Shown: piece after piece, positions 11,966 through 17,212 of the stretch
Numbering within the stretch: the first letter of the stretch is position 1
Layout: the number at the start of each line of letters is the position of its first letter
NCBI RefSeq assembly: GCF_000455285.1
Contig: NZ_HG005292.1
Span: 67,090 to 101,769 of the forward strand
Direction: 5' to 3'
Length of the DNA stretch: 34,680 nucleotides
From: Candidatus Stoquefichus massiliensis AP9
GTDB lineage: Bacteria; Bacillota_I; Bacilli_A; Erysipelotrichales; Coprobacillaceae
Notes under the pieces: model-generated
The model's input: only the letters and a program-made list of their open reading frames with translations
Databases searched by the model: none
Told to the model about the DNA's origin: nothing
Made by a program: the position numbers and the translations under genes

Positions 11966-11991
11966 ACGACATCAATCTGATGTCGTTTTTT
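11965..11991 (+). terminator. Bidirectional-looking terminator
   Basis: The 10-bp stem AACGACATCA with TGATGTCGTT is followed by TTTT on the plus strand. The convergent minus-strand gene ends inside the stem (stop at 11972-11974). Confidence 0.75.
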
Positions 11992-12336
11992 CGTCTAATG
12001 GAGCCATTATAACTAATCCATATAATCCATTATATGTATGTTTAAGATCTATGAATATCTGACTTCCAATCATAAATCCATCAATAAAACTTCCATCTAT
12101 CGTGCTTAGCGCAAGAATGTAGAGACTATCACTATCATCACTTATAACAACTCCTCCAATAACAACTTTTCCATTTCCATTGGCCTCTTTTGTCATTTCT
12201 ACTTTTGATAAGATTTCTGTTTTTTGAGTATTTGAATTTTGAGATAATTCTTTGCATATACTTAATCTTATCGTTTCACTCTCCTTCATTAAATATTGGG
12301 AAAATTTGGGATCTGCGAATTCATTTTTTTAGACAT
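11972..12336 (-). pseudogene. Unknown small protein, apparently frameshifted in an A7 run
   Basis: An uninterrupted reading frame from ATG 12289 gives 105 residues, but that ATG has no ribosome site and AAGGAG lies inside the coding sequence. Upstream, ATG 12336 has an excellent site (AGAGAGG, 7 bases away). It starts MSKK and then hits a run of seven A (12324-12330), after which it would end at a 15-codon peptide. Adding one A joins MSKK to NEFADPKFSQYLMKESE and onward into the long frame, giving about 121 residues. The segment between them reads as plausible protein. The C-terminal half includes SDSLYILALSTIDGSFIDGF. No family is recognised. Either a frameshift mutation, a sequencing error or slippage at the A-run is possible. 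Confidence 0.6.
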
Positions 12337-12423
12337 ATTTTGTCCTCTCTTTCTAGATGAGTTTTATACCTCTCTATTTCTTATATACGCAAAATTTTCC
12401 CATTTTTCTTTTTTTATTGAAAA

Positions 12424-12450
12424 AAAGTTAGAATTTTTTATTCTAACTTT
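12424..12450 (-). terminator. Terminator at the end of the ABC locus
   Basis: An 11-bp stem (AAAGTTAGAAT with ATTCTAACTTT) has a 5-base loop and is followed by a T-tract on the minus strand. It overlaps the stop codon of the membrane-anchored protein, so it closes the region 3 operon. Confidence 0.75.
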
Positions 12451-13192
12451 CAAAAACAACTTTTCCTTTCATATGAGCATATTTCTCTAATATCTGACTG
12501 TAGTGATCAAATAACAATTGTTTTGTTTGATCATATACTTGATGATTTATAGGTACCTCTTCAATATCTGAATGACTCGATAAATCAAAAGTGATATCAA
12601 AGAAATCATATTTATCTAAATCATTTAATTTTATCATATCTAAATCTTGATAATCCTTATAATCCTCAACCTTTTTTACATGCAATTCGGATTTAGCAGG
12701 AATAACCCCAAGACAACTATTAATCAAATTAAAGTGTTGATTATCTTCAGGAATAGCTGTTTGTAAAAAGACAATATAATCCTGTTTATCATCCATTGGT
12801 TTTTGCGCCCCAGAAATCATCAAATCTTCCATTTGAATTTCTATAGGTTCATAAATAACAATTTCCTTACTCTTCAAATCTCCTTTAAATGACTCTAGAA
12901 CTTTTACAGTTGAATAAAATGTTCCATATTTTTGTTGACGTTTGACTAAATGTACTCTTGCGATAACTTGGCTTTTTTGTTCAAGTTCTTCTATATTCTC
13001 AATATCTTGATAAATATCAAATTCATTAGCTCTAAATGGTCCAAAATTAAAGAACGTCATTGTAAAACTTACTTTTTTAATATTTTGATATTGTTCTTCA
13101 AAAGTTGTTGATACTGTTCTTGATTTCAGATAGAAACTTCCTGCAACAGTTAGAACAATTGTTAAAACAAAGACTATTATTTTTTTACTCAT
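12443..13192 (-). CDS. Membrane-anchored extracytoplasmic protein of the ABC locus
   Basis: A 249-residue protein with a basic start and one hydrophobic segment (about residues 4-23, KIIVFVLTIVLTVAGSFYL). No clear cleavage site follows, so it is probably anchored with the rest outside. The body is beta-rich and acidic (VIARVHLVKRQQKYGTFYST, DKQDYIVFLQTA) and lacks a recognised domain. It overlaps the ABC ATPase gene by 8 bp and is the last gene before a terminator. It may be an accessory or immunity component of the peptide/ABC system; that is inference from position only. Confidence 0.7.
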   Translation of the reverse strand: MSKKIIVFVLTIVLTVAGSFYLKSRTVSTTFEEQYQNIKKVSFTMTFFNFGPFRANEFDIYQDIENIEELEQKSQVIARVHLVKRQQKYGTFYSTVKVLESFKGDLKSKEIVIYEPIEIQMEDLMISGAQKPMDDKQDYIVFLQTAIPEDNQHFNLINSCLGVIPAKSELHVKKVEDYKDYQDLDMIKLNDLDKYDFFDITFDLSSHSDIEEVPINHQVYDQTKQLLFDHYSQILEKYAHMKGKVVFES

Positions 13193-13844
13193 TCAGCATC
13201 ACCGTCTGATTCTTAAACAAATAGATAACATCGCTCAATTCTTTAATATCTTCTTTTTGATGAGATGAAATAATAATTAATTTTCCTTTCGCTTTTTCTT
13301 CTTTCAAAATATCATATATTAATTGTACACCATCTTCATCTAACCCACCTGTTGGTTCGTCTAGAATAAAAACATCAGGGTTTTCCATAATTGCTTGAGC
13401 AATCCCCAGTCTTTGTCTCATACCTAAAGAATACTCACCTACTTTTTTGACATCACTTGCATTCAGACCTACCTTTTCAATAGCCTTAGCAACTTCCTCT
13501 TTACTTATCTTATGATTCAAATTAGCCAATGTCATTAAATTCTCTTGAGCATCCATTTCATTAAAAAACTCTGGCTTTTCAATAATCACACCTAATGAAT
13601 AAGGAACTCTCTTATGAAAATTAACTTCTTAATCATCACAAATTACTTTTCCATCACTTGCGTAAACAAGACCACATAAGATTCTCATCAACATTGTTTT
13701 CCCACTACCATTTGTTCCTACAAAAGCATAAATATGTCTACTTTCCATCTCCATGTTTACATTTTGTAATATAATTCTATTTTTAATAACTTTAGAAATA
13801 TTTTTAAGTTCAATTTTCATAATGACCTCCTTAATAATATTCAT
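13185..13844 (-). pseudogene. ABC transporter ATP-binding protein interrupted by one in-frame TAA
   Basis: Two half-genes lie in one frame. The first (13844-13629) has Walker A (GTNGSGKTMLMRILCG). The second has the signature region YSLGMRQRLGIAQA, Walker B VFILDEPTGGLDE and the switch His in IIISSHQ. A single TAA (13631-13629) separates them, and the 13 codons between it and the next ATG continue as normal ABC sequence (VPYSLGVIIEKPEF). The full frame of 219 codons is a typical short ABC-2/bacteriocin-type ATPase. As annotated the product is truncated before the signature motif and should be inactive unless the stop is suppressed or is an error. It is coupled upstream to a membrane protein (14-bp overlap) and downstream to the anchored protein. 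Confidence 0.8.
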
Positions 13845-15096
13845 GATGATTCATCAGATAGACTATGATATTATAAATAACAAATATAAAACAAAGATAA
13901 CATAATGTTGTTATAAAGCTATCATCTAACAATAAAAACTGTAATGGTGATATTCTCATAATCCCTACAAATGTTACAACAATAACGTAGACAATAGTCA
14001 TTGAATTAAATATACTTTCAGATCTTGTTATAATATAACCAACAATTAATAAACTTAACAAAACTACAATGTAAAGAAAATATTGGCAAGATACTAATAA
14101 TAATGATAAATCAAAAATCTGATAAAACAAACAATGAAATATAAGTTTACTACAAACAACAATCATTATAAACAAGTATATTTCCTTCATAATTTTATAA
14201 ACCCATTTTCTTTTGCTCTTAATTCTCACTGCATAGAAAGTATAATTTAATCTGTATCTTTCACAAAACATCATAAATCCAATATATAACAACATCATTT
14301 TTGGTATCATCCATAATAAAGTAATAAACAATTCATTACTTTGCATAAAACCAAAATAGTTATTTAATGACAATGATGTATCTACCAATGATTGATTACG
14401 TAGAAATAACTCAGAAACTATTTCTACAAAAACACACCCAACTAACATCACTATTTTTTTGTCTATTCTAATCTTTCTATTTTGTTGGAAGTAGACTTTA
14501 TTAATGACCATACAGCATATAATAACCAATAGATAAGCTATTATCAAAATATAATTTCCATCTAATCCTTCATATGTCAATGCATACGACCCTAAATGTA
14601 AAGAAGTTAAGACAATAATACGATACGCTATTAATAGAATTCCGCATGTTACAAAGGCATAATAATATTGCTTAGTGATTTCTAATATAGTTGTATAAAT
14701 CAATGTATAAGCAAGATACATCAACAATAGAGTCACAATAATAACTGCTAACGAATAAAAACTTTCTAATGTAAATGTATGAAATCCTAAAATAATCGCA
14801 ATAATCAACTGCCATACCAAAAACTCTAATGATTCTAAAATATTTGATTGGAAATGATGACGTCTCACTTCTTGTAAACTGCTATATCTTGTTTGTATAA
14901 ACGTATTATGATAATAGCGATAATGAAAATACATTAACCCAATCATAAACAACATAGGAATATATATAATCTGATTAATAACAGTAAAAGCAAATGGTCC
15001 ATCATCCTCAAAATAAGTCCATCGGATCACCACTGATATAATAAATGTTACGATGTAAACAACACTTTTTATCCTATTATACAATTGACTATTCAT
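13831..15096 (-). CDS. Polytopic membrane protein (ABC permease component, about 12 TM)
   Basis: A 421-residue protein with roughly twelve hydrophobic segments and very few charged stretches. No named motif is recognised. It overlaps the next permease gene by 4 bp and the ABC ATPase by 14 bp, so it is very likely the membrane partner of that ATPase. Length and helix number suggest a large, possibly fused, ABC-2-like export or immunity permease (inference). It appears intact, unlike the ATPase. Confidence 0.7.
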   Translation of the reverse strand: MNSQLYNRIKSVVYIVTFIISVVIRWTYFEDDGPFAFTVINQIIYIPMLFMIGLMYFHYRYYHNTFIQTRYSSLQEVRRHHFQSNILESLEFLVWQLIIAIILGFHTFTLESFYSLAVIIVTLLLMYLAYTLIYTTILEITKQYYYAFVTCGILLIAYRIIVLTSLHLGSYALTYEGLDGNYILIIAYLLVIICCMVINKVYFQQNRKIRIDKKIVMLVGCVFVEIVSELFLRNQSLVDTSLSLNNYFGFMQSNELFITLLWMIPKMMLLYIGFMMFCERYRLNYTFYAVRIKSKRKWVYKIMKEIYLFIMIVVCSKLIFHCLFYQIFDLSLLLVSCQYFLYIVVLLSLLIVGYIITRSESIFNSMTIVYVIVVTFVGIMRISPLQFLLLDDSFITTLCYLCFIFVIYNIIVYLMNHHEYY

Positions 15097-15908
15097 TTTA
15101 ACATAACGTCTTTTCTTACAAATATAATAGAGGCAATGACTGATATCATAAAAAATGCAATAGGATAAAAATATTGAGAATTGATGAGTTCTATTGAAAC
15201 ATATTTATATGGTGAAAGAAGTTCATAGAAAGGAACTATCATGGGATGAACAAAAACTGTTAACATTGACAACATAAACACGCCACCATATATAACAACT
15301 TTAAACTTTGTAAATAATGCAATAATCATTGTTAATTGCGCAACGATTCCCATCATTACTGATGATAATAAAGAATAGAGAACAAGATAAAGCATGGGAT
15401 TTAAAAAATAAAGATTATAATAACGTATTGTTGTTTTTATACCATCAATACTATAACCATAAAACAAAGTAGTAAATTGAATATAATAACTTTGTTCTTC
15501 TCCAAAAATAATATAACCAAATAAAATAGCTGCCACTAAAGTAATCAGCATCATCAAAAAACCTATTATAAATGATGTAATTAGTTTAGAAATAATATAG
15601 ACTTTTTTATTTTGTCTAACAAATATATTAATAAGACTTTTTCTTTCACTTGTCATCATGATTCCTATAGGAATGGCAATAAGCAATGGAAAAACCAGAA
15701 CTAATGATGTATAGCGAAATGGTGAATATTGGCTCATGATCAGATTAGCCATATATGCTGATCCATAGGATTGTAACTGAATATTATTTTTATCATACAA
15801 AGATGAAAAAGTTAACATAAAAATATAAAGGATAAGCATTGAACAGATGATTAAGAAAGGTGTCCTTTTTAGAAACATTGAAAAATCATAGCGTAATTGT
15901 CTAAGCAT
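15093..15908 (-). CDS. ABC-2-like membrane protein, 6 TM
   Basis: A 271-residue integral membrane protein. One N-terminal helix (about 15-35) is followed by an extracellular loop and then five further helices, the usual layout of ABC-2 permeases. The short cytoplasmic segment TSERKSLINIFVRQNKKVYIISKL is also in the expected place. GGAGG lies 8 bases before the ATG. The stop overlaps the following permease start by 4 bp, indicating coupling. It is the first transporter gene after the signal-peptide gene and probably moves or protects against a peptide (inference). Confidence 0.75.
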   Translation of the reverse strand: MLRQLRYDFSMFLKRTPFLIICSMLILYIFMLTFSSLYDKNNIQLQSYGSAYMANLIMSQYSPFRYTSLVLVFPLLIAIPIGIMMTSERKSLINIFVRQNKKVYIISKLITSFIIGFLMMLITLVAAILFGYIIFGEEQSYYIQFTTLFYGYSIDGIKTTIRYYNLYFLNPMLYLVLYSLLSSVMMGIVAQLTMIIALFTKFKVVIYGGVFMLSMLTVFVHPMIVPFYELLSPYKYVSIELINSQYFYPIAFFMISVIASIIFVRKDVMLK

Positions 15909-15922
15909 TTATATAACCTCCA

Positions 15923-15948
15923 ATCCTTTATATAAAGAGAAAAAGGAT
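15923..15948 (-). other. Hairpin between signal-peptide gene and permease
   Basis: A 7-bp stem (ATCCTTT with AAAGGAT) has a 12-base loop and ends directly before the permease ribosome site. It could be an RNA-processing site that sets different levels for the peptide and the transporter. Confidence 0.35.
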
Positions 15949-15958
15949 ACAATTATTT

Positions 15959-16381
15959 CTAATAATATCTAATATAGTCGTCAGTTGAATAATACAAACC
16001 TACTCCACCATCATAATCACCATAGGATATTGCAACTTTTGTCCCTGCACTAGAAAAACTTCCAGCAACATACTTATTTGATTGATATCCGTCATTTTCC
16101 CAAACAACAAGCCCTGCTTGATACAAACTTTTCATATCTTCGCTAAAAGTAGTAATAATAATACGTCTTGGTTTCCCATTTGTTAAAGTAAACTGAGCTC
16201 CAGTCAATGCATCGTTTGTAGTTTTGGTTTCAAAGAGAGTGTTTTTGCCATTATACATAATTCTAGTTATTGAAGTTTATCCAGCAAAAACATTTGCAAA
16301 CCCCAAGGTTCCAACAAGAGTAATAGTCAAAAGAGAAAGTTTTAATTTTTGTAAAAAGGTCATATTTTTTATGTGTTTCAT
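15959..16381 (-). pseudogene. Secreted small protein with signal peptide, interrupted by one in-frame TAA
   Basis: ATG 16381, preceded by AAGGTGGTG, starts a 34-residue signal peptide. It has a basic N-terminus (MKHIKNMTF), a hydrophobic core (LSLLTITLVGTLGF) and a cleavage motif ANVFA-G. TAA at 16279-16277 then stops it. The same frame continues without break for 105 more codons (after ATG 16258: MYNGKNTLFETK, ending GLYYSTDDYIRYY). The mature part would be about 105 residues, beta-strand-like, Gly/Tyr/Ser-rich and Cys-free. Placement after LytTR sites and before ABC permeases resembles bacteriocin or peptide-toxin loci such as the lactococcin 972 type, but I see no convincing sequence match. 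The signal peptide plus uninterrupted downstream frame strongly indicate one original gene. Confidence 0.75.
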
Positions 16382-16455
16382 AGAGACACCACCTTTCATG
16401 GTTGAACCATTTTTACCAATAAATAAATGTGAAATAAGTATTTTTTCTTTATTTC

Positions 16456-16523
16456 ATTATAACACATATTTTACTATTATTTTTCATGTCATAGTTATTC
16501 GTTGTCCTTTTATAGTTATTTGT
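16456..16523 (-). promoter_or_regulatory. LytTR-type activated promoter of the peptide/ABC operon
   Basis: On the minus strand two 12-base direct repeats, ACAAATAACTAT (16523-16512) and ACGAATAACTAT (16502-16491), are spaced 21 bases start to start, two helical turns. The -10 TATAAT (16461-16456) follows and the -35 is very poor (AAAAAT). This is the typical layout for LytTR-family response regulators that activate from paired direct repeats just upstream of a weak -35. The sites start 6 bases after the regulator gene. Confidence 0.7.
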
Positions 16524-16528
16524 TATTT

Positions 16529-17212
16529 TTATATATTAATTTGGCTATATTGAGCGAAAAGTTTTTTTATTTGACTTCTATTACGTACACTCACATCAAA
16601 TGCTTGTCTAATCCCCTCTATGTATACTTGATGAGTATTAGACTTATATATTTTACTTCTATTAACAATTGTAGATTTATCAACATAAATAAAACGATTT
16701 CTTAAAATTTCTTTCATTTTCTTAAGTGAGCATCCTTTATAAATATATTGTTGATTGTGATACACAAAAGCCACATTATTTCCCCCAATATATTGACAAT
16801 AGAGTATATCATCGATAAAGAAATACTTTTTCTCTCTACGAATCACTAAAGTAGCATATTCAAACTTAATTATATCAGTTAATGCTTCACTCACTCTTTG
16901 TTGAAATTCATCTAAAGTCTCTGTTTTTAATATAAATGCGAATACATTAGGTCCAAATGCATCCTTTATATTTTCATCTGAATCTGCAACAAATATAATA
17001 AATTTATTCCAATTAAGTTTACTATAATTTATTCCTGAAATTTGTGGATCATCTGCATTCAAGAATATTATTTTCAATTCTATTTCTGCATTTTCCATAT
17101 CATCAGTATTATCAAAAGAATGTGTAACCAATTCATTATTAAATAAATTCTTTATCATTTGTGATAGTCTATTACAAAATTCTCTATCCCCATCTACAAT
17201 AGCTATATCCAT
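16529..17212 (-). CDS. LytTR DNA-binding regulator with degenerate receiver
   Basis: A 227-residue protein. The N-terminal CheY-like domain (about 1-115) keeps an acidic start (IAIVDGD) and the late Lys in FILKTE, but the phosphoacceptor position (FLNADDP, residue 52) is Asn. The C-terminal LytTR domain (about 118-225) shows LYCQYIGGNNVAFVY, SLKKMKEIL, RFIYVDKSTIVNRSKI and a final basic DVSVRNRSQIKKLF. No histidine kinase gene is adjacent. AGGGG lies 7 bases before the ATG, and a -10 TATAAT (17244-17239) sits just after the dnaB terminator. It probably activates the peptide/ABC promoter immediately downstream. Confidence 0.85.
   Translation of the reverse strand: MDIAIVDGDREFCNRLSQMIKNLFNNELVTHSFDNTDDMENAEIELKIIFLNADDPQISGINYSKLNWNKFIIFVADSDENIKDAFGPNVFAFILKTETLDEFQQRVSEALTDIIKFEYATLVIRREKKYFFIDDILYCQYIGGNNVAFVYHNQQYIYKGCSLKKMKEILRNRFIYVDKSTIVNRSKIYKSNTHQVYIEGIRQAFDVSVRNRSQIKKLFAQYSQINI

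Follow-up and report, generated by a model that had tools for sequence, protein, structure and literature searches.

A broken LytTR-linked cassette in Candidatus Stoquefichus massiliensis that may encode a bacteriocin-like secreted protein and ABC-based self-protection

We examined an operon of Candidatus Stoquefichus massiliensis AP9 that lies within a 34,680-nt stretch of contig NZ_HG005292.1. We call this whole stretch the window, and all cassette coordinates are positions within it. The reading that we consider best, although we would put it at about even, is that the operon was acquired as a cassette for a bacteriocin-like protein, Sec-exported and apparently unmodified, together with ABC-based self-protection, and that this cassette is now decaying. 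In such a system, an orphan LytTR regulator would bind paired repeats and thereby switch the operon on, and a protein of ~105 residues would exit via Sec and act, as an antibacterial, on the envelopes of competitors. An ABC complex (an ATPase dimer, permease A and a B1-B2 fusion) and an anchored protein would shield the producer's membrane from the secreted protein. Both this protein and the ATPase would have been lost from the present strain through nonsense mutation.

Table 1. Features of the cassette, given as window positions.
Feature	Position	Strand	Basis or remarks
LytTR regulator, 227 aa	16529..17212	-	LytTR domain above Pfam cut-off, 32.6 bits; receiver alignment; 62% identical in G033
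Direct repeats, 13 bases each (16512-16524 and 16491-16503), period 21	16491..16524	-	Candidate LytTR site; both kept in G033
TATAAT, candidate -10 element for the operon that starts with the peptide gene	16456..16461	-	Sequence reading; kept in G033 alignment
Secreted-protein gene, signal peptide and ~105-residue mature part	15959..16381	-	In-frame TAA, codon 35 (16277-16279)
Permease A, 271 aa, ABC-2-like	15093..15908	-	Homologue of the first DUF2712-cassette permease
Permease B, 421 aa, apparent fusion of B1 and B2 half-permeases	13831..15096	-	Half-by-half comparisons
ABC ATPase, 211 codons	13185..13820	-	In-frame TAA at codon 64 (13629-13631); G033 copy intact
Membrane-anchored protein, 249 aa	12443..13192	-	One N-terminal transmembrane helix, without lipobox
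Hairpin followed by T-run, likely operon terminator	12420..12449	-	Sequence reading

The cassette is an operon of six genes, all on the minus strand (17212-12443) and most of them either overlapping slightly or separated by short gaps (Table 1). A check of the open reading frames and the sequence bore out the gene order, strand and coordinates of the original prediction, and the two nonsense codons that it reported in the peptide and ATPase genes are both in frame. When the operon was scanned with Pfam and NCBIfam models, only the LytTR domain and the ATPase gave matches, and PADLOC returned nothing but generic ATPase matches for the cassette. Between the cassette and a zinc-ribbon gene lies a 105-codon ORF with no family match (11972-12289, minus strand).

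The original prediction also proposed paired LytTR sites, and repeats are indeed present between the regulator and the secreted-protein gene, upstream of the TATAAT. The two copies, AACAAATAACTAT and AACGAATAACTAT, are 13 bases long, differ by one mismatch and lie 21 bp apart; an equally good pair arose in 17 of 2000 dinucleotide shuffles, and the sister species G033 retains both copies and their spacing. In an alignment of receiver domains, the phospho-acceptor Asp is replaced by Asn in the window regulator, and by Gly and Glu in the regulators beside the cassettes of G006 and of contig C14 of the window's own genome, respectively, whereas Asp is retained in most of the genome's other LytTR receivers. 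Because the receivers of the cassette regulators lack this residue, the window regulator is probably not kinase-driven. The genome (3.5 Mb) contains 23 LytTR domains. Its C14 locus (L144:3712-6959) is a third related transporter set, without a peptide gene and divergent from its LytTR regulator, with a repeat of 21-bp period between that regulator and the transporter genes.

The secreted protein probably starts at 16381, behind a ribosome-binding site, which makes the in-frame stop codon 35; the TAA falls right after the likely signal-peptide cleavage site. Judged from its sequence, the protein likely follows the Sec route. Homologues with an intact frame are found in G217 and G306. Neither the window peptide nor these homologues matched a known family, secreted or not, among Pfam and NCBIfam models, and thus no non-secreted family, which the original prediction had named as telling against it, was found. 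PF10916 (DUF2712) has no match in the window or its genome, and hmmscan, hhalign (7-10% for the window peptide against DUF2712) and the shuffled controls run alongside could not establish kinship between the two. The structure predictions that had been suggested for the mature peptide and the 249-residue anchored protein, each made from a single sequence, reached mean pLDDT values of only 43.5 and 33.5, too poor to use. Among solved structures, neither protein has a match and the ATPase matches ABC proteins only generically. The peptide and the anchored protein therefore remain unrecognised, as originally stated; the '12-TM protein', also listed as unrecognised, resembles a fusion of half-permeases.

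The evidence for this fusion comes from comparing permease B half by half. Its C-terminal half matched the separate last permease (B2) of G006 at 95.2%, and its N-terminal half matched the B1 type weakly, at only 31.6%, so that the 421-aa protein looks like two half-permeases joined. Against PF10920 the C-terminal half reached 42% with one sequence set and 1.4% with another, the N-terminal half stayed under 3% against WxPxxD, and two scans of genome contigs with permease B gave no match. For permease A, an hhalign comparison established homology with the first permease of the DUF2712 cassettes (99.0% over 251 columns, E 3.8e-18). The description of the membrane proteins as unfamiliar in type thus needs correction: by sequence comparison, the ABC core (ATPase and first permease) is kin to DUF2712/DUF2705 cassettes of the B. 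subtilis yybN-yybMLKJ (YybM/YybJ) type.

The ATPase points to the same kinship. Read from its start at 13820, it is interrupted downstream of Walker A, and it is 47% identical to the ATPase of a Listeria DUF2712 cassette. In a phylogenetic tree, the ATPases of window-type and DUF2712-type cassettes form one group (91/90), from which 17 other ABC ATPases of the window's own genome are separate (99/98); those of the C11 and C14 cassettes of that genome lack firm placement with the rest. The best NCBIfam model is TIGR03740, a lantibiotic-protection subfamily, below whose cut-off of 309.75 bits the window ATPase falls with 55 and 107 bits, scores of two fragments that are lowered by the break in the gene. 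Kinship of the anchored protein to its counterpart in DUF2712 cassettes was not shown.

We then considered how the cassette is distributed. In G033, the other species of the genus examined, the whole operon occupies the same site behind dnaB, with an intact ATPase gene and a peptide gene frameshifted by two single-base indels, both in homopolymer runs. In the close relative G028, a zinc-ribbon gene directly follows dnaB and is itself followed by tdk, with no cassette between, and dnaB is followed by tdk in many genomes of the family; on this gene order, the cassette reads as an insertion at the dnaB junction. The same junction in G027 holds a different cassette of the kind, in which the peptide gene is reduced to a 43-codon remnant. 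Of 315 genomes of the order searched with a profile of the anchored protein, 21 contain relatives (in one, G180, outside any cassette), as does G347, of another family. An intact peptide gene precedes the pump in seven cassettes (two copies in G217 and one each in G306, G006, G039, G235 and G347), although both permeases are frameshifted in one of the G217 copies. Eleven cassettes whose upstream region is in view encode the pump and anchored protein without a peptide gene (three in G100, two in G217, and one each in G209, G314, G010, G031, G032 and G039), and some of these pumps adjoin a LytTR regulator and a kinase (G031/G032 and one G100 copy). Damage to the peptide gene takes a different form in each of the window, G033 and G027. 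The cassette genes accordingly co-occur in other genomes, as the original prediction had proposed to check, and the cassette is conserved in several genera and one other family.

Several individual loci illustrate the variety of these cassettes. In G217, two cassettes of the window's lineage lie in tandem (L029:5758-14642); one of them has no peptide gene, and an AgrB gene adjoins the peptide. In G010, a transposase-like gene lies within the cassette and separates permease A from the next permease (L168:7561-8874). A second related cassette of the window's own genome, on contig C11 (L143:5067-8020), encodes a different secreted protein of 143 aa, whose gene is intact, together with an ATPase and two or three membrane proteins, and lacks the anchored protein. 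On a Lactococcus lactis plasmid (L112:3366-8187), a cassette of this kind with an unannotated 134-aa secreted product lies beside a peptide cleavage/export ABC transporter and an HlyD-family gene.

Between the window and G033, dN/dS was lowest in the ATPase gene (0.07), intermediate in the two permease genes (0.15 and 0.13) and highest in the genes for the peptide (0.25), the anchored protein (0.26) and the regulator (0.28). dN was highest in the regulator, peptide and anchored protein and lowest in the ATPase. The low ratios in both broken genes indicate purifying selection on them until recently, and back the original suggestion that a once-selected system was lost. This faster change of the peptide, regulator and anchored protein fits a bacteriocin-like protein with self-protection. 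So does the loss of the peptide where the pump is kept, without proving it; the window, in which the peptide and ATPase genes are both dead, would be a plausible end point of such a loss. The bacteriocin-type export system on the Lactococcus plasmid and the agrB gene of G217, each beside a related cassette, also fit. Further points in favour are the best NCBIfam model of the ATPase, even below its cut-off, and the conservation of the cassette across genera and in one other family. Against this, no member has known antibacterial activity, the literature searched assigns no function to the kindred yyb operon, the mature peptide yielded no usable fold prediction, and the pumps without a peptide gene could equally be general resistance pumps.

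A less probable account, which we hold at rather long odds, is an envelope-stress or peptide-sensing module. Here the secreted protein would serve as a cue or as a sensor for the cell's own envelope, and the ABC complex, with the anchored protein as its accessory, would be a pump that confers resistance to foreign antimicrobials. The many pumps without a peptide gene, some of them beside a LytTR regulator and kinase, are what such a module would lead one to expect. However, the peptide and anchored protein change at about the same rate while the ATPase is conserved, which suits a pair of partners, and the peptide has been repeatedly lost while the rest was retained. We also consider it unlikely that both stops stem from sequencing errors or represent rare variants, with the system still functional in the species. 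In favour of this, dN/dS stays low before the ATPase stop (0.052) as well as behind it (0.076), and the G033 indels sit in homopolymer runs; but a very recent loss would yield equally low dN/dS, and in G033 the two indels both fall within the 0.4 kb of the peptide gene, whereas the genes for the pump and the anchored protein have none. The window has two in-frame stops within the cassette, yet six genes that neighbour it align with their orthologues over all or nearly all of their length, which makes generally poor sequence unlikely. Finally, it is very improbable that the ABC complex exports the secreted protein and has no immunity role, for although the genes are adjacent in one operon, the product has a Sec-type signal peptide and pumps persist without any peptide gene. 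Since the signal peptide makes the Sec route likely, the pump more likely serves protection than export.

Returning to a bacteriocin-like protein with self-protection, we tentatively suggest, at somewhat less than even, that the cassette belongs to a superfamily of Sec-secreted, unmodified antibacterial proteins of ~100 residues, so far unrecognised as weapons, each paired with a self-protection ABC pump of the YybJ type and, in most cases, with an anchored protein as partner. Several peptide lineages across Bacilli would be included: that of the window, the G347/G039 type, DUF2712, the C11 type and that of the Lactococcus plasmid. The G347/G039-type peptide has no close relative in phage and plasmid collections. 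The cassette links a number of small orphan proteins, secreted by Firmicutes of gut and soil, to a single transporter lineage; should these proteins prove to be bacteriocins, a widespread but uncharted means of competition would be opened.

Three known systems resemble parts of the cassette. LytTR Regulatory Systems have 9-bp direct repeats ~12 bp apart upstream of the promoter, a period of 21 bp, and some are linked to ABC genes (PMC6193735). The window matches this period; unlike them, it has the secreted-protein gene in place of a membrane inhibitor gene directly downstream of the regulator, and its regulator has a degenerate receiver domain. The lantibiotic immunity system LanFEG shares the small ABC-2 type ATPase, with TIGR03740 as best model, and the adjoining secreted product, but the window ATPase is below the curated cut-off, there are an extra permease and an anchored protein, and the operon holds no lantibiotic precursor or modification enzyme gene. 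In the lactococcin 972 system, which works in a comparable way, a small Sec-secreted protein is accompanied by an ABC pair; the window peptide and its homologues match no such Pfam or NCBIfam model, and the membrane proteins differ.

The closest likeness is to the DUF2712/DUF2705 cassettes. One on a Priestia plasmid is annotated as DUF2712, DUF2705, WxPxxD, DUF2705, ATPase and a small anchored protein, and similar DUF2712 loci occur in Listeria and, as far as the contig extends, on a prophage-like contig. The latter, behind lysis genes (L147:7956-11401), is the only DUF2712 relative in the viral contigs searched; DUF2712-type cassettes may thus travel as prophage cargo. B. subtilis has a DUF2712 match as well, which we take to be YybN. 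Rok targets the yybN operon along with several operons for antimicrobials (PMC2978689), YybJKL is an ABC system of unknown function (PMC11466899), and our literature search found no function given for this kindred operon. In the window, the second and third permeases appear fused and a LytTR regulator is added, and the peptide and anchored protein are not demonstrably related to theirs. The plan is nevertheless the same, with a secreted protein of ~115 residues, three membrane proteins, an ATPase of ~210 aa and an anchored protein; permease A is homologous to the first permease and the ATPases fall in one clade. Because the unexplained B. subtilis operon belongs to this transporter lineage, the function of the whole group becomes testable in a laboratory strain.
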